The translations under genes and the position numbers were made by a program. The notes beneath the pieces are model-generated. The model made no database searches. It saw only the letters and a list, made by a program, of their open reading frames with translations, and was not told the origin of the DNA. From Thraustochytrium sp. TN22 (lineage: Eukaryota; Sar; Bigyra; Thraustochytrida; Thraustochytriidae): a stretch of 39,728 nt of DNA. The stretch is taken from contig JABLUY010000295.1 in the NCBI GenBank assembly GCA_013306675.1, forward strand, positions 1-39,728. Reading direction: 5' to 3'. Numbering within the stretch: position 1 is the stretch's first letter; the number at the start of each line of letters is the position of its first letter. Shown piece after piece: positions 1 to 38,684 of the stretch.

Positions 1-1121
1 GCGTGTGGGACGCTCACACCGGCCAAATGCTGCACGTGCTCGAGGGGCACACTGAATACGTCAACAGCGTGGCTTTGGACGGCGACCGGATCGTGTCTGG
101 GTCGCTCGACAAGACGGTGCGCGTGTGGGGCGCTCACACCGGCCAAATGCTGCACGTGCTCGAGGGGAACACGTCCATAGTCTACAGCGTGGCTTTGGAC
201 GGCGACCGGATCGTATCTGGGTCTTTAGACAAGACGGTGCGCGTATGGGACGGTCATACCGCCCAAATGCTGCACGTGCTCGAGGGGCACACTGGTTCTG
301 TCTCAGGCGTGGCTGTGGACGGCGATCGGATCGTGTCTGGGTCGAATGACCACACGGTGCGCCTGTGGGACGCTCACACCGGCCAAATGCTGCACGTGCT
401 CGCGGGGCGTACGTTCATAAGAGTCAACAGCGTGGCTTTGGACGGCGACCGGATCGTGTCTGGGTCTTGGGATAAGACGGTGCGCGTGTGGGACGCTCAC
501 ACCGGCCAAGCGCTGCACGTGCTCGAGAGGCACACGTTAAGAGTCAACTGCGTGGCTTTGGACGGAGACCGGGTCGTGTCTGGGTCTGACGACCAGACGG
601 CGCGCGTGTGGGACGCTCACACCGGCCAAATGCTGCACGTGCTCGAGGGACACACTGGTCCCGTCTCAAGCGTGGCTTTGGACGGCGGCCTGATCGTGTC
701 TGGGTCTGGCGCTGAAGATTCTTTGGACAACACGGTGCGCGTGTGGGACGCTTACACCGGCCAGATGCTTCACGTGCTCGAGGGGCACACGTCAACAGTC
801 AACAGCGTGGCTTTGGACGGCGGCATCATCACCAGCAAGGACGGGAGCGACACCGTGCTGCACTGGGATCTGCAGACCTACGCGCGAGTCGACGCGCAAG
901 CCGCGGCGGCGCTTCCGGACGGAGGGCACCATGCTCTTCCGGTTGAGGTGACCAACGCAGTCCATATCCTGCTTGGCGATGGCCGGGTGGGCTTCACGAC
1001 CGATCATGCCAACACGCGTTGTATGCGTTGGGGCGCCACCGTCGTTGCTGGCGATGCGTCCGGCATGGTGCACATTCTCAATATGAGTGACGCAGAGTCA
1101 CTCTCTCCTCTGCCGAAGTGA
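1..1121 (+). CDS. WD40-repeat C-terminal part of an NLR-like (NACHT-WD40) protein, cut by the window edge
   Basis: The gene runs in from outside the window; position 3 is in frame and the first complete codon is the Val of a VWD motif. What remains is seven WD40 blades of 40-45 residues, each built as LHVLEGHT-x-x-V-x-x-VALDGDRIVSGS-x-D-x-TVRVWDAHTGQM. A degenerate closing segment follows (VGFTTDHA, then VAGDASGMVHIL) and the stop is at 1119-1121. The repeats are almost identical at the DNA level, with a 120-bp period that two small in-frame insertions (near 418 and 710) lengthen. The C-terminal closing segment matches that of the complete TIR-NACHT-WD40 gene at 2841-6860, so this is very probably a tandem paralogue and the missing N-terminus should carry NACHT and perhaps TIR. 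That last point is inference. All complete linkers read G/A-Q-M/A, unlike the E/D-Q linkers of the neighbour. Confidence 0.9.
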   Translation, partial: VWDAHTGQMLHVLEGHTEYVNSVALDGDRIVSGSLDKTVRVWGAHTGQMLHVLEGNTSIVYSVALDGDRIVSGSLDKTVRVWDGHTAQMLHVLEGHTGSVSGVAVDGDRIVSGSNDHTVRLWDAHTGQMLHVLAGRTFIRVNSVALDGDRIVSGSWDKTVRVWDAHTGQALHVLERHTLRVNCVALDGDRVVSGSDDQTARVWDAHTGQMLHVLEGHTGPVSSVALDGGLIVSGSGAEDSLDNTVRVWDAYTGQMLHVLEGHTSTVNSVALDGGIITSKDGSDTVLHWDLQTYARVDAQAAAALPDGGHHALPVEVTNAVHILLGDGRVGFTTDHANTRCMRWGATVVAGDASGMVHILNMSDAESLSPLPK

Positions 1122-1870
1122 CCGACAATTTATGGATGACTTGAAATGTTGTAGATGCAGGCGCGAATCGAACTCTGGCGTGCAAGCACGCGTCGTGCGT
1201 TCGTAGGCATTCGCCTCTCGCCAGGAATGTTCGCAAGGCCAATGGCGGCGCCGAGCAAGGTCAATGGCGCTCCCTGCAAGGACCTCCCCTCGCCTCGCGC
1301 AGCGGCGTCGCGGTGCAACGTGTCGAGGGGCAGGAGTCCACCGCCGCGAGGGCTGAAGCACGCGCGACGTTGCTCAGTCCGTGCTGGCGCGCGAAGCGCT
1401 GGCAATTGAAAATTTGCTGCACGCCAAGCCGGCCAAATGGGAAGATGATTAACATCATCGTCGAGGGCGTTGCCGTCGTGCACGCGCGCGTTGCGCGCTG
1501 CCAGACCCTGGTCAACACGCTCCTGGGCGCTTGCGTTGAGGCGCACTTTGCTTGGATCAATCTCTTCTGCACCGATCTGGGCGTGCGCAACGCCAGCGGC
1601 GAGCAGCACGAGGCCTGGGAGGGCACCGAGGACGGTGGCATGCACGCCGATCTGGCCCGCCTGAAGGGGTGACTCGCAGCTGGGTGAGACGCCCGCTGTG
1701 GTTAGCGCGCCCACAATTGCTGCCGAGACGCTCTGCTGCTCCGACCACGACGAGGTCGCCGTCTGCGCCGTCAAGCGCGAGCACCCACTTGGCAACGAGT
1801 TCCGACACAGCGCGCCGCAGATAGCCCGCGAGGTGGCACCCCGTGGTGTCCACAGCGCCAAGCCCCGGAG

Positions 1871-1937
1871 CAACGGGTGCAAGCGAATGCCGCCGGATAC
1901 AAGCGAACGCCGCCGGATACAAGCGAACGCCGCCCTC
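1871..1937. repeat. Short tandem repeat, about 20 bp x 3
   Basis: Three consecutive copies of a unit beginning CAAGCGAA[T/C]GCCGCC are visible, the first two separated by exactly 20 bp. The tract lies in the non-genic interval between the two NLR-like genes. Confidence 0.75.
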
Positions 1938-2714
1938 GTTTGCGCGCGCCGCAGCCATCCAGGACGAACTGCCAAGCGTGCCTGCGACGGGGTCCCCCAC
2001 ACCGTGCACCCGTCGTCGGTGAGCACTACGGCGCGGCGCGGCTCATGCTTGGCAAGAACCACGTCGCACGCAGGTGTACGAGGCTCAGGGGACAGCCGCA
2101 CGTGCATCCAGCGCGTCCGCGTCTTGCCCATTTGCGCCCTCCGTTGTAAGCATGCGCCTCCTCAGAGTCAGCGATTACGCTAGCTTGCTAGGGGTCCGCG
2201 AAGCCTCGTCGCGCGCCGTGCGTGCGTGCGTCCGGGGCAGCTCTTTGACAGCAGCGCTTCCGCTGCGCGAGATGCAGGCGCAAGCCCGCGTTGGTCGTCA
2301 GTGAACTTGAAGCACGAGTTCACTCTGGTTGCTCAAAGCTCCCCGCCGCCGCACACGCCACGGCGTGCCGACGGCGGGTAAAGCTGTTGTAGTAACGTTA
2401 GTGCTCCTGCGCTCTCAGGCTGCATTGCACTCGCCGGACGGCCTGGCCTGAGGCCCTGAGCGGCCCTGGTGGGTGGTTGGCCAGACAGCCTGAGCGGGAG
2501 GTAATCGCTCCGCGGACGCAGTGCTTGACGGCCTTGATTGCCGGGGGCCGAGCTTGGCATTGACAGGGCTTGTGCGCAGATCGGCGCACTTGAGGAGCTG
2601 GAGGAGTGGCGCTCTGCACTGACAGTGAACTATGCGCGCGTGCAGTCCCGCGCCACATCCGTCCGTCTCGCCATCGCTGGCGCGCGTGCCTCGAACATAT
2701 AGTCAACCTCCGTG

Positions 2715-2812
2715 TGCGCGGCGCGGCGCGGCGCGGCGCAAGGCGCGGCAGGGCGCAAGGCGCGGAGGCGCGCAAGGCGCGGAGGCGCGCAGGAGCGGCG
2801 CAAGCAGCGCTG
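2715..2812. repeat. GGCGCGG/GGCGCAA low-complexity tract upstream of the NLR-like gene
   Basis: The tract consists of alternating GCGCGGCGCGG and GCGCAAGGCGCGGAGG units. It ends about 30 bp before the start codon at 2841 and so lies in the presumed promoter or 5' leader of the TIR-NACHT-WD40 gene. No function can be read from it. Confidence 0.7.
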
Positions 2813-2840
2813 TGAGTAGCTAGCTAGCTGAGGCGGCGCG

Positions 2841-5800
2841 ATGCTGCGATCGCGGGCAGGGAGGCTGCATCGAGCGCGCGAGGAGCGCGCGGCCAGCAAC
2901 GAGGCGGTGGCGCAGCCAGGGGCGCTCGCGGGCGCGGCGGAGCGCGCAAGGAATCTAGCGAGCTTTGCCAAGGGCTGGCTGGCGCAGCTGGTGCGCGAGG
3001 CGCTCACCGCCGAGGAGCCTGGCGCGCCTTCGAAGCTGGACGACGGCGACTCGCAGCGCGTGACGGTCTTTGTGTCGCACAAGTGGGGCGAGGACGAGGG
3101 GGGGCGCAATGTGCTCAATCGTCTCGGGGCAATCGCGGACTGGTTTGACGCGCACAAGGAGTATGGCATCGACATGGTCCTCGACAAGCGGCATGCTGAA
3201 GGCGACGTGTTCACGTGGATGACGTCCCAGATTGACACCTGCAGAGTCTTCTTGGCCTGCTTGACGAAGGGTTACTACCTGGCTGTGAACTCTGGAGACA
3301 AGACGGACAACTGTCAGAGGGAGTTCGCATATGCCGGGGCCACCAAACCGAACCGCGTGCTCGGGCTCGTGCTCGAGGCTGCTGTGCCGCGAGAAGCCCA
3401 GTGGCGCGGCTCCGTGCTCATGGTCCTCCAGGGCGAGATCAACCACCATCACGAGACGGACGCTGATTTTGACGAGTCGATGCGTGCACTCGCGCAGCTC
3501 ATCCAAAAGAAGTCGGAAGCGCCAATCGCCGCGGAGAATCAGGCTCAAGAGGTTGCGATGGCGCCGCTTTCGCCTCCATTTCCGCTCGGCTATGACTTCC
3601 GCTTCAAGGGCCGCGCCGTGGCGCTCGAGTACCAAGCCGGAACCCGGCTCTGGATTCTTGGCGAGGTCGACGTCTGGGCGAAAAAGTTTCGCTGGGGCTC
3701 GCGGATCATGGCCATGCTCGGCCCTGCGGGCTTCGGCAAGTCCGTCATCATCGCCACGATCTGCGTTGCCTTGCTCGGCTTCCCGACCGTCAAGCCCAGG
3801 CGGTCTATCGCGGCCCGTCTTTCGCAGCGCAAGTCCCGCTCGCAGCCCTACGTCATCGGCGCTGCCCACTTCTTCCGCTACCACGACGACGACGCCAAAA
3901 ATGTGCTCGTGTGCCTGCGCAGTATCGCCAACCAGCTTGTCGTGGCCGTCCCGGGTCTGCGCGCCCTGTACACGCCCGAGCTCATCGCCAACGCTGCCAA
4001 GCAGACCAATCCGCTCACGCTCTTCAAGCGCATCATCGCCGAACCGTGTTCCCTGGTGGACAGGCCGGCGACGCGCGTCATCGTGGCGCTCGATGCCTTG
4101 GACGAGGCCGACCCCGCGCAGCGGGATGATCTCCTTGCCATCATTCGCCGGGAGTGGAGCCGCGGTACGCCTGACTGGCTCGGCCTCATCGTTTCCTCAA
4201 GGCCCGAGGACGAGATCCGCGAGCGCCTGCTCCACTACGTCCCGCTCATCCTCGACCTCGATGACGAGCGCAACAAGGCCGACGTCGCCAAGTTCCTCCG
4301 CGCCAAGCTCAAGGACTTCATGGCCAGCGACGCGGAGCTCGACTTGGCCCTGCCGCAGCTCGAGGAGAGCGCGCAAGGCCTCTTCCTGTACGCCGCCATG
4401 CTCCACAGCAAGCTCAAGGAAGACAAGAAAACAAATCTGACGGCCACCGAGCTGGTCGGCCTCTTCCCCTCCGGCCTCGACGCCATGTACGAGGAGTACT
4501 TCGGGAGGCTGCTCGCCGGCCCGCTGCAGAGAGACGAGGAGCTCTACGGCAACCTGCTCGGCGCCATGTGCGCCGCACGCGACCCGCTGCCCATCACTGT
4601 CGCAGCCATGGTCCTTGAGAGCACCGATCGGCAGACGAAGCGCCTACTCTCTGGTGCCGCGCAGCTTCTCGACGTGGACGCCACCACCGTGCGCTTCATT
4701 CACAAGTCCATGCCGGACTTCCTCACCGATGAAGCACGGGCCGGCTTGAGGCTTCTTGTCGAGCGCGACCATGGCCATGCCAGGCTTGCCAAGGTCCTCC
4801 CTACCGAACGCACCCCCTTCGCGCTCAAGCACGTCATCTTCCACCTCTGCATGAGCGAGCGTCAGGACGACGCCCTCAAGCTGCTCGACGATTTCGAATG
4901 GGTCCACGCGCTCCTCTCGGCCAAGTCCTCGCCCGCCGAACGTCATGCCTTCATCGGGGGCGCCCTGCGTGACTTTCGCCGGGCCAAGCTCGACGCGGAC
5001 AGCGACACGCCCCGACTTCTTAGCAAGGCCATGCTCGCCGTCATTACCGACCCAGACCAGCTTGCCAGCCAGGTCATCGCGCGCATCGCCGACCCCGACC
5101 ACCCCCTGCGACGCACACTTCAGCCGCCGCAAAGGCCATGGCTCTGCCCCGTCAAGCCGACTCTCGCCCCGCCGCGCGATCCGCTCCTGCACGTGCTCAG
5201 GGGGCACACCAGCTGGGTCCTGGGCGTGGCTCTGCACGGCGACCGAATCGTGTCCGGGTCGGACGACAACACGGTGCGCGTGTGGGACGCTCACACCGGC
5301 GAGCAGCTGCACATACTCGAGGGGCATACAGATGTCGTCAACAATGTCGCTCTGGACGGTGACCGGATCGCGTCTGTGTCTCAGGACAAGACGGTGCGCG
5401 TGTGGGACGCGCACACCGGCGAGCAGCTGCACGTGCTCGAGCGCCAGTCCTCTACCGTCTGGTGCGTGGTTTTGGTCGGCGACCGGATCGTGTCTGGAGT
5501 TGGTGATAAGACGGTGCGCATATGGGACGCCCGCACAGGCGAGCAGCAGCTCGTACTCGAGGGTCACACGGATGCCGTCTACAGCGTGGCATTGGACAGC
5601 GACCGGATCGTGTCCGGATCTGAAGACAAGACCGTGCGCACGTGGAACGCTCACACCGGCGACCAGCAACACGTGCTCGAGGGGCACACTGATGCCGTCT
5701 ACAGCGTGGCTTTAAAAGGCGACCGGATCGTGTCTGGGTCTCACGACAAGACTGTGCGCGTGTGGGACGCTCACACTGGCGACCAGCTGCGCGTGCTCGA

Positions 5801-6860
5801 GGGCCACACAGCAAGTGTCTACAGCGTCGATCTGGACGGCGACCGGATCGTGTCCGTATCTCACGACAAGACGGTGCGCGTATGGGACGTCCACACTGGC
5901 GGCCAGCTGCACGTGCTCGAGGGGCACACGGATATTGTCTTTAGCGTGGCGTTGGACGACGACCGGATTGTCTCTGGCTCGTATGACAACACGGTGCGCG
6001 TGTGGGACGCTCGGACCGGCGACCAGCTGCACGTGCTCGCGGGACACGCTGACTTCGTCTGGAGTGTGGCTCTGGACGGCGACCGGATCGTGTCTGGATC
6101 GAACGACAACACGGTGCGCGTGTGGGACGCCCACACCGGCGACCAGCTGCACGACCTCGAGGGGCACACGTCCAGAGTTGACTGCGTGGCTCTGGACGGC
6201 GACCGGATCGTTTCTGGCTCGCAGGACAACACAGTGCGCGTGTGGGACGCCCCCACCGGCGAGCAGCTGCACGTGCTCGAGGGTCACACCGGTGCTGTCA
6301 CAAGTGTGGCTTCGGGCGGCGCATGGGTCGTGTCTGGGTCCTACGACAAGACGGCGCGAGTGTGGGACGCTCACAAGGGCGACCAGCTGCACGTACTCGA
6401 GGGACACACCGACGCCGTCTACAGCGTGGCGTTGGACGGCGACCGCATCGTGTCTGGGTCAGGAGACAAGCTGGTGCATGTTTGGGACGCTCAAACTGGC
6501 GATCACCTGCGCGTGCTTGAAGGGCACACCTCCGAGGTCAGCCTCGTAGTCCTGGACGGGGGCATCATCACCAGCAAGGACTCCGGGGGTAACGTCCTGC
6601 ACTGGGATCTGCACACCTACGCGCGAGTGGACGAGCAAGCCGCAGCGGCATGCCCGGACGCTGGGCGCCGCGCTCTCCCCGTCGAGGTGACGAACGGAGT
6701 CCAGATTGTGCCTGGCGATGGGCGGGTGGGCTTTACGACGGATCATGCCATCAACTATTGCATCCGACGAGGCGGCACCATTGTTGCTGGTGATCAGTCC
6801 GGCATGCTGCACATTTTTAAGATGAAGAAAGCTCACGAGGAGGCCAGGGCCAACGAGTAG
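2841..6860 (+). CDS. TIR-NACHT-WD40 protein (NLR-like STAND NTPase)
   Basis: 1339 aa. Residues 1-72 are basic and helical. A TIR-like domain spans about 73-200: it begins VTVFVSHKW and has NCQREF at 157-162, whose Glu161 sits where TIR NADases and plant TIRs carry the catalytic Glu. A NACHT-type ATPase spans about 285-460: Walker A GPAGFGKS at 294-301, Walker B ALDALDEAD at about 416-424, and sensor-like VSSRPED at 451-457. A winged-helix/helical region (FPSGLDAMYEEYF near 542, VRFIHKSMPDFL near 617) is typical of NACHT-WD40 proteins. From about 784 to the end come 12 clear WD40 blades of exactly 40 residues and a degenerate closing segment, enough for two seven-bladed propellers. STAND proteins of this kind oligomerise on ligand binding to their repeats and activate the N-terminal effector, here probably NAD cleavage or TIR signalling. 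Immune or self/non-self recognition is inferred from architecture. A tandem paralogue lies upstream (1-1121). No introns or breaks are visible. Confidence 0.93.
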   Translation: MLRSRAGRLHRAREERAASNEAVAQPGALAGAAERARNLASFAKGWLAQLVREALTAEEPGAPSKLDDGDSQRVTVFVSHKWGEDEGGRNVLNRLGAIADWFDAHKEYGIDMVLDKRHAEGDVFTWMTSQIDTCRVFLACLTKGYYLAVNSGDKTDNCQREFAYAGATKPNRVLGLVLEAAVPREAQWRGSVLMVLQGEINHHHETDADFDESMRALAQLIQKKSEAPIAAENQAQEVAMAPLSPPFPLGYDFRFKGRAVALEYQAGTRLWILGEVDVWAKKFRWGSRIMAMLGPAGFGKSVIIATICVALLGFPTVKPRRSIAARLSQRKSRSQPYVIGAAHFFRYHDDDAKNVLVCLRSIANQLVVAVPGLRALYTPELIANAAKQTNPLTLFKRIIAEPCSLVDRPATRVIVALDALDEADPAQRDDLLAIIRREWSRGTPDWLGLIVSSRPEDEIRERLLHYVPLILDLDDERNKADVAKFLRAKLKDFMASDAELDLALPQLEESAQGLFLYAAMLHSKLKEDKKTNLTATELVGLFPSGLDAMYEEYFGRLLAGPLQRDEELYGNLLGAMCAARDPLPITVAAMVLESTDRQTKRLLSGAAQLLDVDATTVRFIHKSMPDFLTDEARAGLRLLVERDHGHARLAKVLPTERTPFALKHVIFHLCMSERQDDALKLLDDFEWVHALLSAKSSPAERHAFIGGALRDFRRAKLDADSDTPRLLSKAMLAVITDPDQLASQVIARIADPDHPLRRTLQPPQRPWLCPVKPTLAPPRDPLLHVLRGHTSWVLGVALHGDRIVSGSDDNTVRVWDAHTGEQLHILEGHTDVVNNVALDGDRIASVSQDKTVRVWDAHTGEQLHVLERQSSTVWCVVLVGDRIVSGVGDKTVRIWDARTGEQQLVLEGHTDAVYSVALDSDRIVSGSEDKTVRTWNAHTGDQQHVLEGHTDAVYSVALKGDRIVSGSHDKTVRVWDAHTGDQLRVLEGHTASVYSVDLDGDRIVSVSHDKTVRVWDVHTGGQLHVLEGHTDIVFSVALDDDRIVSGSYDNTVRVWDARTGDQLHVLAGHADFVWSVALDGDRIVSGSNDNTVRVWDAHTGDQLHDLEGHTSRVDCVALDGDRIVSGSQDNTVRVWDAPTGEQLHVLEGHTGAVTSVASGGAWVVSGSYDKTARVWDAHKGDQLHVLEGHTDAVYSVALDGDRIVSGSGDKLVHVWDAQTGDHLRVLEGHTSEVSLVVLDGGIITSKDSGGNVLHWDLHTYARVDEQAAAACPDAGRRALPVEVTNGVQIVPGDGRVGFTTDHAINYCIRRGGTIVAGDQSGMLHIFKMKKAHEEARANE
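5190..6560 (+). repeat. Tandem 120-bp WD40-coding repeat array (about 12 units)
   Basis: From about 5270 to 6490 the unit beginning TGTGGGACGCTCACACCGGC recurs every 120 bp without any length change. Most units differ from each other at a few codons only: two positions after GHT, two before VAL, and the residue between GS and D. The array is coding (WD40 blades of the gene at 2841-6860). Its regularity implies recent duplication or gene conversion. Confidence 0.95.
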
Positions 6861-12982: not shown

Positions 12983-13439
12983 GGTCGTTTCGAGCGTCCC
13001 GCTCGCTGCCTCGCTTCGCCTCCGCCTCGGGCTCTTGCCTGCTCCGGCGCGGCGCCCGCCGCGGGCCGCGGCCCGCCGCCCGCCGCCCGCCGGCCTCGCT
13101 CGCGCGCGCGGCGGCCCCGGCGCCGGTGAAGCTCGCGCGCGCGGGCCTGGGCGCTCAGCTCTTTTGCTCTGCTCTGCTCTGCTCTGCTCCCGGCCATGAT
13201 GTGCAAGCTGGCAAGGCGCGGCCGCGGCGCCTGGCCCCGTTAGGGCGCGGCCCATTTGAACGACCCTCGGCGGCGCCGCGCCGAGGGGGCGCCGCCGCGG
13301 CGCCGGGCCGCGTCGAGCGCGCAAGAACTCGCGCAAGCTCGCAAGCCGGGCCGGCTCGGCGTGCGTGCGTGCGCCCGGCCCGCGCGCCGGCGGCCCGGCT
13401 CTGACTGGAGGCTGGTGCTTCCTTTCGCCTTCTCCTCCC
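12983..13439. promoter_or_regulatory. Divergent promoter region between the ArfGAP and PX-PH-kinase genes
   Basis: This 457-bp head-to-head interval is extremely GC-rich. It contains CGCGCG runs and a CTCTG pentamer repeat (TGCTCTGCTCTGCTCTGCTC, about 13165-13186). No TATA box is seen. Frames remain open on both strands, but only in low-complexity Arg/Ala/Pro sequence. Confidence 0.5.
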
Positions 13440-16400
13440 ATGGCGAGACGCGGCGATGAGGTCATTTGGGCCAACGTGGAGGACGGCCAGGGCTGCGCGC
13501 TCGTCGGGGGCCTGCGCATCAAGTTCGCAATCCCGCTGACGCAAATGGCCACGCGCAATGCGTCGTCCTTTGTCAACTATTGCATCGTGGTTCAGGTCCG
13601 CAGTGCGCACCCGGTCGAGGAGCATAAAGATGACCAGGATCTGGACCAGGACCAGGACCAGGACCAGGAAGAGCGCTGGATGGTCAAGCGCAGCTCGCGT
13701 CAGTTTGAGAGCCTACACAAGCTGGTCAAGCGAACGCTTGAAGAAAAGGGCGCGAGCTACCGACCCTTTTTGCGACCGCTGCCGCGGCGGCGCTACTTTG
13801 AGTCGAGCGCTGGGCCAGCACTTCAGCTGCGCAAGAAGCGCCTCAAGGAGTACCTGGCCGACGTACTGGCGCTGGCGCAGACCGACACCGACGTCTGCCA
13901 CCTGGCGTGCGCCTTTTTGGATCTCGATGAGGATGCCGTGGCCCAGCCGGCGCAGGCGCCGACCATCAATCCAGGCTCGCTGCCGCCCTTGCCCCCGACG
14001 CCGTCCGGAGCTGGCAGTGCAAGAACCAAGCACCGCCGCGCCGAGCCGGTCTTCACGGAGCGCCGCACTGCACTTGACTCCGTCGTCGGCGTTTTGCGCA
14101 AGGGCTGGAAAGCCGGCGTCGGCCGGCCCACACCGCGTCGCGAAAGCGCCGCCGCTGCCACTGAAGAAGGAGCTGTAGCCGCAACTCCAGTCTCGACAGC
14201 AACGGCAGCGGCAGCGGCAGCAGCAGCAGGAGAGGCAGTCGCAGACGGCACTCCAACTCCACTTGAGGGGGCTGGCGTGCTCAAGGCCGGCTTTCTGGGC
14301 AAGCGCGGCGGGTATCACGGCGGGCTCAAGTCGTGGAAACGGCGCTTCTTTCGGCTCACGCCGTCCGGGCTCGCGTACTACTCGAGCACCACCATGACGC
14401 TGCTGGGCGTCATCTCCCTGAGCGAGTCCACGGGCGTGGTGATGCTCTTGGACGCGGAACAGGGCCGCTTGCAGCGTGTGCCAGCCGGCAAGTTCGGCTT
14501 TCTGGTCAGCACCGAGGAGCGCGAGCTGCTGCTATGTGCCGACACCGAGTCGGACCGTGTCTCGTGGATGCGTGCCGTGCGGGTGGCCATGGGCGAGCGA
14601 GTCAAGGCGGCGCGCCACCATCAACACCACCAACACCAGCATCAGCACTCGCGCTCGCGGTCCTCAAACGGAACCGACGATTGGTGGGACGGCGGCCAGT
14701 CGCCAACACCCTTTGTGATGGCGTCCGCTGCCTCGCAACAGCAGCGCTCCGCAATGAAGTCAGCGGCACCAGCACCAGCACAAACAGCAGCAGCAGCAAG
14801 CGCAACAGCAACGACAACAACCGCTGCGGCGGCGGCGGCGGGGACGAGGACGCCGACGACAGCGTCTGCGGCGGAGGAGGCGCCGGGTCGCAAGTCGGGC
14901 TTTGCAGCCCGGCTGCGGCGGCGTGCCTCATCTGGCGGGCCGCTACTCGTGGACCCGTGTGACGCGTCAAAGCAAACGAGCAAGTTCGTCAAGGAGGAAG
15001 CAAGCTTCGACGCGCCAGACCTGTGGCGCAAGGACCCGTGGGAAGTGGACTGGGCGCAGGTGGATCTGGGCGTCAAGGTGGGCGAGGGCGCAGCCGGCGA
15101 GGTGTTCCGCGGGTCCCTGTGGGGTTCGGAGGTGGCCATCAAGCGGATGCACTGCGCTGAGATCACGCCCGGCATGCTGCGCGCCCTGCGCAAGGAGGTG
15201 ACCATTTTGAGTCAGTTGCGGCATCCGAATGTCGTGCTGTACATTGGCGCCTGCACCGTACCGCCGAATGTGTGCATGGTCACGGAGTGGTGCTCGCGCG
15301 GCTCGCTCTTTGACGTCTTGCACTCGAGCTCGATTCTGCTCGCGACACGCCGCCGCATCGACCTGGCGCTCCAGGTGGCTCAGGGCATGTCGTACCTGCA
15401 CGGGCGGCCGAAGCAGATCATCCACCGCGACCTCAAGTCCATGAACGTGCTGGTGACGCAGGGGTGGCAGGCCAAGGTGGCCGACTTTGGGCTCACCATT
15501 GTGCGGCGCGCCTCGGAGCAGCCATCCTCAAAGGCTACGGAGTCATCCGCAGGCCGTGACGACGCGCGGGAGGACGAGGACGGTGAGAGCGCGCACTTTG
15601 GCATCCAGGGCACGCCGCAGTGGATGGCGCCCGAGGTCATGGAGGGCAACAAGTACAATGGCAAGGTGGACGTGTACGGCTTCGGCATTGTGTTGACGGA
15701 GTTCTTTACGCGCAAGATGCCCTTTGCGGACCGCTACAAGCAGTTCGACTTTGTAGACGCTGTTTTGGAGGGCGCCACGCCAACCATCCCGGTCTGGGCC
15801 AGCGACGCAGCCACCTACGGCGAACTGGAAGAGCTCGAGGGACGGCCCGAGTCCAAGAGCCGCTTCCGCCGCAGGAGCTTGCTTTTCGACCGCCAGGCCC
15901 ACACGGGGCCTAGAGACGAGAACCACAAGGACGGCGAGAACGACGGCGTCAATGAAAATGATAACGACGACGAGGAGGAGGAGGAGGAGGTTGACGAGGA
16001 GGACGAGGACGTGGAGGACGAAGGCGAGGTTGAGGACGAAGACGAGGCTGGCGACGAGGAAGCGGACCCGCTCGCGCTGGCGGCCGCCACGGCGCGGCGC
16101 GTGCACGCGGTCAGCGGGCCGCGCGCTCGCGGCGGCACCTCGGGGAGCGGTCGCGGCAGCGGCAGCGCGCTGGCGCGCGAGCTGCTCGGGCCGGCCAACA
16201 TCCAGCGACTGACGCTGGACTGCCTGAGCCGCGACCCGCGCGCGCGGCCGAGCTTCCAGGAGATTGTGGCACGCCTGAGCAAGCTCTTGGAGAACTCGCC
16301 CGAGGAGCTGCTGGAGCATTTTGACCTCCCGCGCCTGCACGAGATGCTCGAGGTCGGCGGCCTCTTCGACCTGAGCCTGGCGGCGCGTGAGGTGACGCAG

Positions 16401-17249
16401 GTCGTGCACCAGGTGCGCTCGCGCAGCCCGCTCGCAGGCGTGGCGGACGAGCACGAGGCGTGCGAGGACAGCGTCGCGGGCACGGACGACCTCGCCTCGG
16501 TCTCGTCCGTGGCGCGGCCCGCCAAGGCGCTCCTCTTGCACTGGGTGTGTCCGCTCGTGGTGCGGCTCGTGGACCGCCTGACGCGCGAGACGGACTTTAT
16601 CCTGACCTGCGGCGGCGAGCGCGTGCAGCTGCACATTCCGGAGCGCGTCCTGGCCGAGGTTGCCGTGGCGATCCACAACCTGCTGCAGGTCTGCGCCTCG
16701 GACGAGGGCGTGACGCTGCAGGCTGCCAACGTGCTCGTGGACCAAGGCGCGCTCCCGGTCCTGGCGCGGCTCTTCCTGTTCGCAGACGCGGCGCGCGAGG
16801 CGGAGCGCGTCGAGGTCAAGCCATCCGCGTACGACACCGAGGCGGAGATACAGCACGTTGTCAAGAACCGCGCTCCGGACTTTGCCAGCCTCCTCCACGC
16901 TGGCCTGGTGCTCTCGTACCTGGGCTCTGCGGCGCAGGGGCCTCGAGTCGCTGGCGCCGTGGAGCTCGCCATTCGCGACCAGTTCGCCGCTGTGGACGGC
17001 TCCTCGCATCTTGCGTCCCGCGCTCGCTCTCGCTGTCAGTCGGCCGGCATTTTCCTTGTCCACGGCGCACAAGGGGCCGTCGTGCATCGCGTGGAATTTC
17101 ATTCTCCCGGCTCGCAGCCTGTCTCCGGACCTGCAGCTCCGCAGGACTACGACCTCTTGCGCCAGGAGAACCTCCGCCTGCGCCGTGAGCTCGACCTCTT
17201 GCGCCGCGAGCTGGACGATGCCAAGCATCACGCATTGGCCAAAAAGTAG
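13440..17249 (+). CDS. Multidomain PX-PH-TKL protein kinase with armadillo-like C-terminus
   Basis: 1269 aa from the ATG at 13440 (CCCATGGCG). A PX domain spans about 22-160: RSSRQFESLHKLVKR corresponds to the phosphoinositide-binding RRxxxF motif, and FLRPLPRRRYF to the PX proline loop. A PH domain spans about 275-385 (AGFLGKRGGYHGGLKSWKRRFFRL). The TKL-type (Raf/CTR1-like) kinase starts near residue 540: glycine loop VGEGAAGEVF, VAIK with Lys568, HRDLKSMN with Asp664, DFG with Asp682, APE with Glu732, and DPRARPSFQEIV in the C-lobe. All catalytic residues are present. A very acidic insert of about 130 residues (rich in Asp/Glu, about 15900-16080) splits the C-lobe. The C-terminal 300 residues contain armadillo/HEAT-like helices (VAVAIHNLLQV, VLVDQGALPVLARL) and a final leucine-rich coiled coil. 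A phosphoinositide-recruited MAP3K-like kinase at endomembranes is inferred. Confidence 0.9.
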   Translation: MARRGDEVIWANVEDGQGCALVGGLRIKFAIPLTQMATRNASSFVNYCIVVQVRSAHPVEEHKDDQDLDQDQDQDQEERWMVKRSSRQFESLHKLVKRTLEEKGASYRPFLRPLPRRRYFESSAGPALQLRKKRLKEYLADVLALAQTDTDVCHLACAFLDLDEDAVAQPAQAPTINPGSLPPLPPTPSGAGSARTKHRRAEPVFTERRTALDSVVGVLRKGWKAGVGRPTPRRESAAAATEEGAVAATPVSTATAAAAAAAAGEAVADGTPTPLEGAGVLKAGFLGKRGGYHGGLKSWKRRFFRLTPSGLAYYSSTTMTLLGVISLSESTGVVMLLDAEQGRLQRVPAGKFGFLVSTEERELLLCADTESDRVSWMRAVRVAMGERVKAARHHQHHQHQHQHSRSRSSNGTDDWWDGGQSPTPFVMASAASQQQRSAMKSAAPAPAQTAAAASATATTTTAAAAAAGTRTPTTASAAEEAPGRKSGFAARLRRRASSGGPLLVDPCDASKQTSKFVKEEASFDAPDLWRKDPWEVDWAQVDLGVKVGEGAAGEVFRGSLWGSEVAIKRMHCAEITPGMLRALRKEVTILSQLRHPNVVLYIGACTVPPNVCMVTEWCSRGSLFDVLHSSSILLATRRRIDLALQVAQGMSYLHGRPKQIIHRDLKSMNVLVTQGWQAKVADFGLTIVRRASEQPSSKATESSAGRDDAREDEDGESAHFGIQGTPQWMAPEVMEGNKYNGKVDVYGFGIVLTEFFTRKMPFADRYKQFDFVDAVLEGATPTIPVWASDAATYGELEELEGRPESKSRFRRRSLLFDRQAHTGPRDENHKDGENDGVNENDNDDEEEEEEVDEEDEDVEDEGEVEDEDEAGDEEADPLALAAATARRVHAVSGPRARGGTSGSGRGSGSALARELLGPANIQRLTLDCLSRDPRARPSFQEIVARLSKLLENSPEELLEHFDLPRLHEMLEVGGLFDLSLAAREVTQVVHQVRSRSPLAGVADEHEACEDSVAGTDDLASVSSVARPAKALLLHWVCPLVVRLVDRLTRETDFILTCGGERVQLHIPERVLAEVAVAIHNLLQVCASDEGVTLQAANVLVDQGALPVLARLFLFADAAREAERVEVKPSAYDTEAEIQHVVKNRAPDFASLLHAGLVLSYLGSAAQGPRVAGAVELAIRDQFAAVDGSSHLASRARSRCQSAGIFLVHGAQGAVVHRVEFHSPGSQPVSGPAAPQDYDLLRQENLRLRRELDLLRRELDDAKHHALAKK

Positions 17250-25229: not shown

Positions 25230-26552
25230 TCAAAAGAGGCGGTGCTTCTTGCGCAGGTCCTGTTGCCTCCAGAGCTCGAGCTTCTGAAATTCTTCCGGAG
25301 ACATGCCAAAGACCGTGCGGAATTCGGTGGGATCCAGGTACCGCTCGCGCTGCGTAGCGTCGACGCCCGACGGCAACGGGTTGCCCTGCAGCTGCTTGAG
25401 CGAGTAGTACCTGCGGCGGCGCGACGATGACGCCCTGCTCGCCGAACGCTTCGACGAGACGGCGGAGCTGCGCGAGCTAGACCGCGCGCGCGAGGACGAC
25501 GAGGACCTGCCGTTGGCCGCCGCGCCACCGCCAGTGCTGCCGCCGCTGCCACCGCCGCCGCTGCCGCCCAGCTTGGCGCGCAGCAACTGCACGGCGTTGC
25601 GCGCGTCCTCGTTGTCGCGGTCGAGCTTGGTGAGACGCTTGAAAGCGCGCAGGGCGTCCTCCTCCTTGCCCTCCTTCAGATAGGCAATGCCCAGATTGTA
25701 CAGGTTCTCAGTGTTCTTCGGATCCAGCTCGTACGCCTTGCGCAGGCACGGGAGCGCCAGGTCATAATTGCCCTCGCGCGCGTGCAGCACGCCGAGCGCC
25801 GCGGTTGACTCGAAAAACGCCGGCTCGCGCTTGATGGCCTTAATGAAGCACGCCTTGGCCTTGGACGCCTGTCGCATCTTGAGGTACAGAATGCCCAGGT
25901 TATGCAGCGCAAGAGGCGCGTCCGAGAGCTCCAGCGACTGCTCGTACAGCTGCTGCGCGCGCTCCACGTCATTCTTCTTATGGTGCGCCAGCGCCAGCTC
26001 CGACAGCGCCAGGGCATACAGTCGCGTGGTCTCGGGCGACCGGTCTTTGAGCGCCAGCGCGTTCTCGTAGCACGTGACCGCGTCGTCGAAACGCTTCAGC
26101 TTCAGGTACGCAAAACCCAGGTCCGCGTGCGCGATGGGCTCCTTGGGCTCCTCACGGATGCCTTCCAGCGCCGCGGCCTTGGCCTCCTCGAAGCGCCCCA
26201 GGCTGGCCAGCGCCTCGCTCTTGCCGCAGTACGACGCGTAGAACTGTGGCGCGTACTCGATCGTCTTCTCAAAGCACTCCAGCGCCTTTTTGAACTGTTT
26301 CAGCGCCGCAAACGCCACGCCCATGTTGTGCATGCTCTCAAAGTGCTCCGGGTTGAGCTCTAGGGCGCGCCGGAAGCACTTGATCGCGTCTTTGGCGCGC
26401 CCCGTGTTCATCAGCGCCGCGCCCTTGTTCGAGTACGCCACGAAGAGCTGGTCCTCTGGCAGCTCTTCCAGCGCACGATCATAGTTCGAGATTGCGCCGC
26501 GGAAGTCGCGCACGATGAACGCCTGCTTCGCGCGCTCGATGTGGTCCGCCAT
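25230..26552 (-). CDS. TPR protein with C-terminal villin headpiece domain
   Basis: 440 aa from the ATG at 26552 (GCCATGGCG). Residues 1-325 are about nine tetratricopeptide repeats with the usual W/L-G-Y-A-F-A-P pattern (for example AYSNKGAALMNTGRAKDAIK, HNLGILYLKMRQASKAKACF, YNLGIAYLKEGKEEDALRAF). A Gly/Ser-rich linker with an RS-rich basic stretch follows at about 330-380. The last 59 residues (382-440) are a complete villin headpiece: YSLKQLQGN, ERYLDPTEFRTVFGMSPEEF, then LELWRQQDLRKKHRLF ending in the canonical Leu-Phe. The cap Trp, the basic crown (RKK) and the core Phe residues for F-actin binding are present. Headpieces usually end gelsolin-type or other actin-binding proteins; I do not know a TPR-headpiece fusion as a standard family. 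A scaffold linking TPR partners to actin is inferred. Confidence 0.92.
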   Translation of the reverse strand: MADHIERAKQAFIVRDFRGAISNYDRALEELPEDQLFVAYSNKGAALMNTGRAKDAIKCFRRALELNPEHFESMHNMGVAFAALKQFKKALECFEKTIEYAPQFYASYCGKSEALASLGRFEEAKAAALEGIREEPKEPIAHADLGFAYLKLKRFDDAVTCYENALALKDRSPETTRLYALALSELALAHHKKNDVERAQQLYEQSLELSDAPLALHNLGILYLKMRQASKAKACFIKAIKREPAFFESTAALGVLHAREGNYDLALPCLRKAYELDPKNTENLYNLGIAYLKEGKEEDALRAFKRLTKLDRDNEDARNAVQLLRAKLGGSGGGGSGGSTGGGAAANGRSSSSSRARSSSRSSAVSSKRSASRASSSRRRRYYSLKQLQGNPLPSGVDATQRERYLDPTEFRTVFGMSPEEFQKLELWRQQDLRKKHRLF

Positions 26553-36252: not shown

Positions 36253-37230
36253 GCTCGCGGACGAGCTCGCGGACGAGCTCCCCGCGAAGGAGCGCCGAGC
36301 TACGCGGCGGCTCGCGGGGCAGGGTGGCGGCTCGCGTGCGGCTCAGGCAGACTCTTCCACCAAGGGATCGGAGAAGTTTGGCGTTCGCGCGGAAGGGGGA
36401 GGGACAAGGCGCCCCAGCTGGTGGTCGTTAGGCTGGCGCCGAGCGAGCGCTCCTTCTCCATTGACAATGGCAGCTCGCAGCGGGCAGGCTCTCGTGGTAC
36501 TGGCGGCGCGCGAAAGTGCCAGTGCCTGATTCCATGGTGCAGAAGTCTGCCAGAGCCGCCTTCATCGGTCTTCTCATCGGTGACACGCACGAGCCGGACA
36601 AGCTTCGACAACCCTGAGGACCGCGAGGCGGACCAGGCGGCTCGCGAGTACATCTTCGCAAAGCTTGGTCGGCCTTCCGTTGCAGCAACCACGAACATGC
36701 GATTCAATCAACACCACTTTCACCCGACCTCGTTCGTGGCGATCAAGCACGCCAGGGGCACGAGGCGCTGGAAGCTCAAGCCTGTGCAGCATGTGAGAGT
36801 TTCTGAGACGCGGCAGGCGCCGTTGCCAGCAGAGGAACCTAGCTGGAATGGAGCTCGATGGGTACTGCGCGCCGAGGAGTCTCTTGAGACACCGAACGAG
36901 TTGAGAATGCTCGCTTCACATGTCCAGGAGCCCGCCGCGGTCGAGACCGGCGCGGAGACGGCTCGAAGAGCTCGCGCACGGGCGCAAGACCCTGACAGTG
37001 TCGCAGACGCGGAGCGCCAAGCGGAGTCGCGCGTCAACGCAGTCCGCGCGTTGGATGCTGCGGCTCGGCTCGAGGATTCTCTGGCTGAGCAAAGGCGAAC
37101 TGCCGCACGTGCCGCAAGCGAAGCCACGCATGCCGCTCCGCGGAGGCAGCACTGGAAGACTGCCTGGCCACGACCGCAGCAAGCCTGGGCGCCATGGAGG
37201 CTTCGCATCGCGATGCGATGGTCAACATGA
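36253..37230 (+). pseudogene. Upstream frame of the transposon protein: THAP-like zinc-finger segment and coiled coil, out of frame with the DDE domain
   Basis: The frame is open from the stop at 36250-36252 to 37230, but its first ATG is at 36697, so the true start is unclear. A segment KCQC-LIPW-C, then about 55 residues, then MRFNQHHFHPTSF and RRWKLKPVQHV (about 36517-36800) has the layout of a THAP finger (C..C, W/F core, ..HF, LKP). The usual third Cys position before HF is Asn. After it comes an Ala/Arg/Glu-rich helix (36940-37125). The adjacent frame continues the same kind of helix (SAEAALEDCLATTAASL) directly into the transposase at 37194. The two were therefore probably one protein, broken by a -1 shift around 37120-37145 or joined by splicing. 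Confidence 0.5.
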
Positions 37231-38684
37231 CCAAAAAGCTGTCAGCAGCGGAGACGGTCGCACAACACGCACAGGCCTCAAACAACGACTACAAGGTCGC
37301 GTACCAGAACGCGGCCAAGCTGGCCGCAGATCGGGCCCTCGAGAACAATCGACTTCGTGAGCTGCTCGCGGCCCAGATGGAGTCAGCGCGGGTCCAGATG
37401 GAGTCAACGCGTCGCCTGCAGCAATTGCTGGACGCAACGATGGCTGCAGAGCGAGCCCAAGCGAAGGAGAAGGAGGATTTAAAGGCCGCGGTTGCCGCTC
37501 TGACCGAAAATGAGCACGATCGGCCCCGACTTCGCTGGGAGACCTTCAAGAACAACAAGAAGCTGGTTGCGGGCTTCCGCAATCTCACCGGCCTACCCTC
37601 GGTCACGATTTTAGAGAAGCTCCGCGTTTTGCTGGTTGCAATCGGGGCAGAGAGGGCTGAGCACCTGCCGCAGGCCGAGCGAACCTGGCGGGAATTCGAC
37701 CGCCGTTGCGCAAAAATGAAAACGGACGGCTCGGACTCGGACTTGGACTCGGACTCGGACTCGGCAGAGCCGCCGATCAAGCGCCGTTTGGTGATGAGCG
37801 ACTTTGCATCCAGCTCCACGAGCGTCTCGATGAGCGACCTCTCCACCGCTTCGGACGAGTCGACACGGCTCACCTTCGCCGATAAGCTCCTCGTTGGCCT
37901 GATCACCATGCGAACCGGCCTCGGCCAGCAAGAGGTGGCGTCTTTGTTCGGCATCGATCAAGGTACGGTCTCGCAAGTCTTCGAGATGATCGTGATGGCG
38001 CTCTACACACTCTTCAACCGCTTCGTCTTTCCCCCGCCCACGGCAGAGATGCTCCGGGATACATGCCCGGACAATTTGCGGCAGCGCAACACGAACAGCA
38101 GCTACCTGCTTGACGTGTGCGAACTTGAGGTACAGGTTCCGACCGACCCTGAAGTGCACGCCGCTACATGGAGCAAAGACAAGGCTCGCAACACCGCCAA
38201 GCTCCTCGTGGCTGTCTCCCCAAGCGGACGCATCGCGTGGACGTCTGAAGCCTACCCAGGGCGCATCACTGACGGTGACCTGGCCAGATTGTCCGGCTTC
38301 CATGGAGTCTGTGGGCACCGCGGCCAGTCCGCGATGGCTGACAAGGACTTTCTCATGCAGAACGAGCTCGCGCTTTACGACACATACCATTATGTCCCGT
38401 CGAATCGATCTCACAGGCAGCCCGTCCTGACGCCGGAGGACACGATCATGACTCTCAAGACCGCGAACAACCGTGCACATGCTGAGCGCGCTCTCAGTCT
38501 CGTCAAGGAGTACAAGTGGCTCACCTCGACCATCAGCCTACACCAGCTGGACTTGATCACGCCCGTGTTCTCGGTCGCGAGTTGGTTGGTGTCCTTCGCA
38601 ACATGACCATGAACGGAGGCAGAGGCTCATCTTCATCTTTGTTGTTTTCGCTCATCCACTTGATTATTTTCGGAGGGAGCTCGT
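36272..38684 (+). mobile_element. PIF/Harbinger-like DNA transposon (boundaries tentative)
   Basis: The interval includes the THAP-like segment and the DDE transposase. Candidate terminal repeats are GACGAGCTCCCCGCGAA (36272-36288) and TTCGGAGGGAGCTCGTC (38668-38684), which match in 15 of 17 positions as inverted repeats. Both are flanked by GCG, which fits the 3-bp target duplications of this superfamily, although TTA/TAA is usual. Because the region is GC-rich, the ends are tentative; the transposase itself is certain. Confidence 0.5.
37194..38606 (+). CDS. DDE transposase of the PIF/Harbinger (DDE_Tnp_4) superfamily
   Basis: 470 aa from the ATG at 37194; the coding sequence probably began further upstream in the original element. 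Residues 1-115 are coiled coil. A helix-turn-helix (LTFADKLLVGLITMRTGLGQ, then VASLFGIDQGTVSQVF) at about 222-262 matches the HTH found before DDE_Tnp_4. The nuclease core follows: first Asp in YLLDVCELEV (Asp307), second in GRITDGDL (Asp360 or Asp362), an ADKDF motif, and the Glu in NNRAHAERAL (Glu431), then KEYKWL. All catalytic positions are present and the frame is uninterrupted through the domain, so the element may be young. An Asp/Ser stretch (DSDLDSDSDS) precedes the HTH. It catalyses excision and integration of the element. Confidence 0.88.
   Translation: MEASHRDAMVNMTKKLSAAETVAQHAQASNNDYKVAYQNAAKLAADRALENNRLRELLAAQMESARVQMESTRRLQQLLDATMAAERAQAKEKEDLKAAVAALTENEHDRPRLRWETFKNNKKLVAGFRNLTGLPSVTILEKLRVLLVAIGAERAEHLPQAERTWREFDRRCAKMKTDGSDSDLDSDSDSAEPPIKRRLVMSDFASSSTSVSMSDLSTASDESTRLTFADKLLVGLITMRTGLGQQEVASLFGIDQGTVSQVFEMIVMALYTLFNRFVFPPPTAEMLRDTCPDNLRQRNTNSSYLLDVCELEVQVPTDPEVHAATWSKDKARNTAKLLVAVSPSGRIAWTSEAYPGRITDGDLARLSGFHGVCGHRGQSAMADKDFLMQNELALYDTYHYVPSNRSHRQPVLTPEDTIMTLKTANNRAHAERALSLVKEYKWLTSTISLHQLDLITPVFSVASWLVSFAT

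Follow-up and report, generated by a model that had tools for sequence, protein, structure and literature searches.

The window analysed here is an entire contig of 39,728 nucleotides (C216; GenBank JABLUY010000295.1), one of the 453 contigs in a eukaryotic genome assembly of 37,891,866 bases (37.9 Mb), and its first 6,860 nucleotides carry two adjacent genes for proteins of the TIR-NACHT-WD40 type, both on the + strand, as are all of their features given below. The second gene (2841..6860) is a single uninterrupted open reading frame (ORF) for 1339 amino acids (aa) that, judged from the ORF and from its matches elsewhere in the genome, encodes a complete TIR-NACHT-winged helix-WD40 protein. 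The first gene (3..1121) is truncated by the contig start and retains 372 aa of the C-terminal WD40 part (WD40, 178.6 bits), which are 70% identical to the second protein across its residues 974-1331; a repeat-unit search resolved its WD40 units as a 120-bp tandem array at 39..776. An earlier note, made from the sequence alone, had described both the complete protein and the C-terminus of a close paralogue in the same orientation, and both descriptions were borne out, together with a Walker A motif at residues 294-301 and a glutamate at residue 161; the Walker B motif that it had placed near 416-424 was located at 417-422.

The TIR domain comprises residues 73-235 including its C-terminal part (3057..3545) and was assigned to TIR_2 by way of a family alignment, the window protein itself falling below the curated cut-off. 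Its weak match can be settled as a TIR because every one of the 21 family TIRs in the alignment has a TIR_2 match at E <= 0.1, the best value being 1.8e-13; two relatives that each carry two TIRs score 62.5 and 108 bits for this domain. When a TIR profile was compared with PDB sequences, the matches were a SEFIR domain (E 1.8e-4), the plant RPS4 TIR (5e-3) and the Cat1 TIR (0.065). In the first alignment of 21 TIRs, window included, two columns only are invariant, one of which is Glu161, the conserved TIR glutamate (3321..3323). This residue, the Walker A motif (GxxGxGK[ST]) and the Walker B motif (LDA.[DN]E) are all kept in 18 of the 18 aligned TIR-NACHT members, a census of aligned proteins that covers a minority of the 123 TIR_2 matches found genome-wide.

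The TIR is followed by a NACHT-type STAND NTPase, recognized in Pfam as NPHP3_N (3639..4202; 59.2 bits against a cut-off of 24.8), with the Walker A motif GPAGFGKS (3720..3743) and the Walker B motif LDALDE (4089..4106) read in the protein and in the aligned members. Against PDB sequences the NACHT profile gave a best match of E 0.027 only, mostly through the P-loop. A winged-helix motif, RFIHKSMPDFLTD (4692..4730), emerges from the family alignment; the Pfam scan of the window protein gave no winged-helix match, and HTH_TANC1 matches the corresponding region of a bacterial relative, L040. The sensor region, delimited with a unit profile, consists of 12 WD40 units of 40 residues (5196..6617), of which 11 are canonical (5196-6515) and one is degenerate (6516-6617). 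It ends in an atypical but conserved C-terminal tail (6618..6857), with a similar tail in the family proteins that were read, which is probably the last propeller blade or blades. Searches of PADLOC and PHROGs returned no family, and NCBIfam gave two sub-threshold chance matches only. Effector, STAND NTPase and repeat sensor lie in one chain with intact Walker motifs, the arrangement of NLR-type STAND receptors of the TIR class, and the catalytic-type glutamate together with the TIR homology points to a TIR of the NADase (NAD+-cleaving) type, from which cleavage of NAD+ would be predicted.

A dispersed gene family

The architecture of the window gene is not a product of chance, because counterparts of its 783-aa TIR-NACHT part, 53-73% identical across two thirds or more of the length, occur at 13 places on 12 other contigs and because TIR, NACHT and WD40 share one uninterrupted frame in 16 of the first 21 regions read (the window, L009-L011, L013-L021, L023, L024 and L026; the frame of L021 runs into a contig end). 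Broken members were described as they stand, none being repaired or joined. Among eight further NLR-family regions (L031 and L033-L039), no TIR was seen in L037 or L038, a weak TIR-like stretch is all that L036 has (E 3.9e-4), and L031 contains an assembly gap within its WD40 part. Genome searches, the window included, returned 64 matching stretches for the TIR-NACHT part, 71 for the TIR and 46 for NPHP3_N, and Pfam TIR_2 has 123 matches, 114 of them over the cut-off. A TIR is also present in 28 of the 45 open frames with a NACHT-type domain, and there are 126 TIR-holding frames in total; frames were paired between the domain lists by contig, strand and frame length, a label match in which the genes were not individually read.

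The tandem locus of the earlier note holds in that two adjacent genes are present in the window, but members of the family are scattered across dozens of contigs and the pair gives a local view only. Family members lie at or run into contig ends at the start of the window contig, at the end of C77, at the start of C428 and at places in C152, C184, C325 and C110; near-identical repeats probably break the assembly at these genes. If so, the copy numbers of the family are lower bounds. Telomeric repeats (three or more units of TTAGGG or TTTAGGG) were not seen in the window or in L001-L028.

WD40 units homogenised within genes and diversified at four positions

A unit profile built from strict units gave 269 matches, 151 of them full and insert-free, representing 127 distinct proteins and 128 distinct DNAs. 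Of 146 units, 67 have their closest counterpart within their own gene, against 7.1 expected, and outside the four sites considered below the mean DNA identity is 0.88 within genes and 0.75 between genes. Up to six identical 120-bp units occur per gene, the number of units ranges from 10 to 19 across 14 intact genes, and the within-gene likeness of units is at least about 85% in some members (0.89 in L009, 0.93 in L011 and L021, 0.86 in L022 and L027).

Variability in the unit is highest at positions 6, 7, 9, 23 and 25. According to the available excerpts on the NWD unit of Podospora, diversifying selection acts there at codons 7, 9, 25 and 27, which are paired around the constrained codons 8 and 26 and sit at the top of the propeller (PMC1805685, PMC2873952). 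With V8 aligned, these codons give 7, 9, 23 and 25 in the present unit, which is two residues shorter than that of Podospora, and this was used as the prior site set; the register is our own alignment, made on the conserved residues that the variable ones flank and with a fungal unit as an aid, and the variability table and the per-site count had been inspected before the fungal codon positions were taken up. Among 22 independent within-gene pairs, the set 7/9/23/25 collects 85.5 nonsynonymous differences, the top value of all 91,390 four-codon sets, with proportions of nonsynonymous (pN) and synonymous (pS) differences of 0.400 and 0.289 at the sites and of 0.025 and 0.057 outside them.

Selection was measured by counting and not by a likelihood codon model, and a second choice of pairs was based on amino-acid identity outside the sites, which avoids selection by synonymous likeness, with position 6 excluded from the outside set. 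At an identity of at least 0.97 (15 pairs from 8 frames), pN is 0.391 and pS 0.175 at the sites (ratio 2.24), compared with 0.009 and 0.033 outside them (ratio 0.28); pN at the sites is 12.0 times pS outside, and all 20 single-step codon changes at the sites are nonsynonymous, with 0 synonymous. The site ratio is 2.90 at an identity of at least 0.94 (18 pairs, 9 frames) and 1.92 at 0.90 or above (19 pairs, 9 frames), and the Fisher p values for the excess of nonsynonymous over synonymous differences at the sites are 0.013, 0.0016 and 0.018 for the thresholds 0.97, 0.94 and 0.90, respectively, the three sets overlapping. The 146 units hold 119 different four-residue combinations, and in the window gene all 11 canonical units differ at the four sites. 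What is new here is that the WD40 units of the family are homogenised within genes yet diversified at positions 7, 9, 23 and 25.

Other TIR genes, neighbouring genes and the host

Besides the TIR-NACHT-WD40 genes, Pfam identifies a TIR-Roc-COR-TIR protein, with a ROCO-type GTPase between two TIRs, immediately upstream of one of them (L017:981-4202, +), and a second such protein (L032:1276-4599, -) was read by eye with a COR match in frame; the genome has 46 COR-A matches, of which 42 exceed the cut-off, and 34 of the 46 COR frames also hold a TIR. In a second subfamily (L026:3221-9364, L034:814-5112 and L039:112-4479) the TIR is preceded by a degenerate TIR-like stretch that, read by eye, has no glutamate motif, and L026 has two NPHP3_N matches. 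Contig C160 carries a tandem array of TIR fragments (192-5666), with six consecutive TIR_2 matches about 1043 bp apart, four of which contain an in-frame TGA. Discordance between the TIR and NACHT trees was seen, and no swapping of TIRs is claimed from it, the NACHT tree having 2 of 15 inner branches well supported. Elsewhere in the window there are a PX-PH-protein kinase frame (13365-17249, +), a TPR protein with a C-terminal villin headpiece (25230-26552, -) and, towards the far end of the contig, a DDE_Tnp_4 transposase gene (37194-38606, +; 89.1 bits).

The protist host proposed earlier is supported by a model of PfaA, the synthase of omega-3 polyunsaturated fatty acids (PUFA), which scores 2539.7 bits in one frame of 3044 aa; in a control, the same model found some match in 11 of 14 genomes and a match over the cut-off in 0 of 14. 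A second frame (2083 aa), on the opposite strand near the first, matches part of the model. On the two overlapping loci of the first frame, 4 and 9 acyl-carrier motifs were counted, some of them twice. We take these frames to be the thraustochytrid arrangement, the start of the first resembling a thraustochytrid PUFA synthase. The photosystem II core gave no match in the genome, a result that a missing plastid contig would also produce. The PfaA-type synthase and the lack of a photosystem II core match together point to a thraustochytrid as the host.

Relatives, proposed function and alternatives

The window gene appears to be a variant of a known TIR-STAND plan. A counterpart in architecture, L040, lies on a contig of a Burkholderiales metagenome-assembled genome (MAG) and shares with it TIR_2 (74.9 bits), NPHP3_N (87.1), a winged helix (HTH_TANC1, 36) and WD40-like repeats in equal order, as well as an HKS..D motif; the repeats were seen in BLASTP alignments and not in the Pfam scan. 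The domain order is on this evidence probably not unique to eukaryotes. L040 is far diverged (28% identical to the window protein across some 700 aa) and sits on a short 3.5-kb MAG contig of unproven origin. Of the 274 genomes of its class, 1 had it at E <= 1e-30, namely its own, and it is therefore rare or possibly misbinned. An Acetobacteraceae MAG holds a TIR plus NACHT protein (L041). A first scan of bacterial and archaeal contigs gave no relative and a second gave three distant ones, including L042 from Streptomyces, both scans pre-filtering on short motifs and missing relatives that lack them; among viral contigs, neither two protein alignments nor one repeat pattern turned up a relative.

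Plant TIR-NB-LRR receptors likewise combine a TIR effector, a STAND switch and a repeat sensor, but with NB-ARC and LRR in place of the NPHP3_N/NACHT and WD40 found here. The fungal HNWD/NWD proteins (HET-E, HET-D and HET-R of Podospora anserina) resemble the present family as NACHT-WD40 receptors with very similar units within a gene, concerted evolution and positive selection at two pairs of positions flanking constrained ones (7, 9, 25 and 27 in the fungus, 7, 9, 23 and 25 here). They differ in having an N-terminal HET domain where this family has a TIR (the single HET match in the whole genome is in a frame outside the family), in their fungal rather than stramenopile-like host, and in an established role in incompatibility, whereas the protist family is known from the sequence of one genome. 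Amphioxus has TIR-NACHT and TIR-NB-ARC-WD40 genes, an almost identical domain combination in an animal lineage, and the available part of that report does not mention hypervariable repeats (PMC2575513). In excerpts of other reports, TIR-NLRs are described for a small fungal group (PMC10197012, PMC9815663), and a green alga is said to have NACHT-WD40 (PMC4773052). Among the listings of the open-licence literature, which leave out subscription journals and preprints, there was no report of thraustochytrid NLR or TIR-NACHT-WD40 genes.

The family joins a TIR, a region of STAND NTPase and winged helix whose motifs are intact, homogenised WD40 units and four sites driven apart. We propose that these genes probably encode intracellular TIR-NLR receptors of a thraustochytrid-like protist with diversifying WD40 sensors, for which we infer an immune-type role. 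The WD40 propellers, through the four variable positions at the propeller top, would bind either a protein of a pathogen or a guarded protein of the host; binding would let the NACHT domain exchange ADP for ATP and then oligomerise, and the clustered TIRs would use Glu161 to cleave NAD+, the resulting signal or loss of NAD+ killing or arresting the infected cell. Repeat shuffling and selection would renew the specificities, as in the NWD genes of Podospora. The NADase step, the cell death and a role in immunity or allorecognition, all raised in the earlier note, are thus predictions from sequence.

Several observations weigh against this proposal. The evidence for the family comes from one genome, and the other frames of the window, scanned with Pfam, gave no match suggestive of defence. 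Four members (L012, L022, L025 and L027) are broken, gapped or fragmentary and the TIR of L028 is shortened, and L027 and L022 give 5 of the 15 pairs selected at an identity of at least 0.97. The two window genes, with units too far apart for this test (0.72 alike in the window gene), contribute none of the 15-19 selected pairs; the diversifying sensor claimed for the locus stands in 8-9 other family frames and may by family membership be carried over to the window gene. Over 53 adjacent pairs with no identity condition, pN/pS is 1.02 at the sites and 0.42 outside, the former value being expected under saturated sites and also compatible with weak selection; a site ratio clearly above 1 is thus confined to close repeats. 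In 24 such codons the recent duplicates L018 and L019 have just 2 nonsynonymous differences, and the paralogue pairs L012/L013 and L011/L012 have site ratios of 0.62 and 0.67, compared with 1.78 for L021/L022. The window TIR alone scores 22.4-23.6 bits, under the TIR_2 cut-off of 28, and the glutamate is not universal, since of six further TIRs (L028, L031, L033, L034, L035 and L039) five have Glu and L034 has Gln.

These last points favour the view that the TIR serves as a scaffold, lacking NADase activity and recruiting other proteins, in the manner of Toll-receptor adaptors, as does the deviation of some members from the SHKW start of the domain. This appears unlikely given that the glutamate is one of the two invariant columns among the 21 TIRs and that the best PDB profile matches include the SEFIR domain and the RPS4 and Cat1 TIRs. 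About equally unlikely is a primary role in allorecognition, in which the machinery would distinguish strains at contact or fusion, as HET-E and HET-D do with HET-C, and immunity would be secondary. Hyphal fusion is not known from thraustochytrids, and the protist family exceeds the known fungal incompatibility set in size. The analogue with equal diversified sites is indeed an allorecognition family (excerpts of PMC1805685 and PMC2873952), but most fungal NLRs are said in the accessible text of PMC12881547 not to act in allorecognition. The recognition of viruses or other parasites seems the more likely function of the receptors, because a mostly unicellular osmotroph has little somatic fusion.

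A somewhat more doubtful alternative is that the proteins are housekeeping scaffolds for cell death or signalling rather than pathogen sensors. A STAND NTPase plus WD40 is the plan of Apaf-1, and L040 has a weak APAF1_C match (17.1 bits, under the cut-off), but a conserved housekeeping role is at odds with the dozens of diverged copies, with the presence of broken ones and with the diversifying selection on four positions of the unit. That the variable sites are merely unconstrained, or that the pattern comes from gene conversion or repeat assembly, is improbable: arrays of identical 120-bp units are difficult for assembly, a number of family members are located at contig ends and the ratio for adjacent pairs of any divergence is 1.02, but neutral drift predicts pN near pS, not the twelvefold excess of pN at the sites over pS outside in pairs chosen regardless of synonymous sites, and assembly errors would not pick out four codons already named from fungi.

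By a judgement only a little better than even, thraustochytrid-like protists possess a large and fast-evolving TIR immune system, with TIR-NACHT-WD40 and TIR-Roc-COR-TIR proteins, in which a fungal-type hypervariable face of four residues per blade and repeat shuffling were reached apart from fungi. How single-celled eukaryotes of lineages other than plants, animals and fungi recognise non-self is, in our judgement, little charted, and the variation of the sensor at positions equivalent to those of fungi suggests such an uncharted microbial immune system. The four residues per WD40 unit may offer a readable specificity code in what is probably an oil-producing marine protist. Thraustochytrids are a culturable group with known viruses, and the family opens to testing both a repeated origin of NLR-style immunity with hypervariable sensors and a protective value of TIR cell death for clonal single cells.

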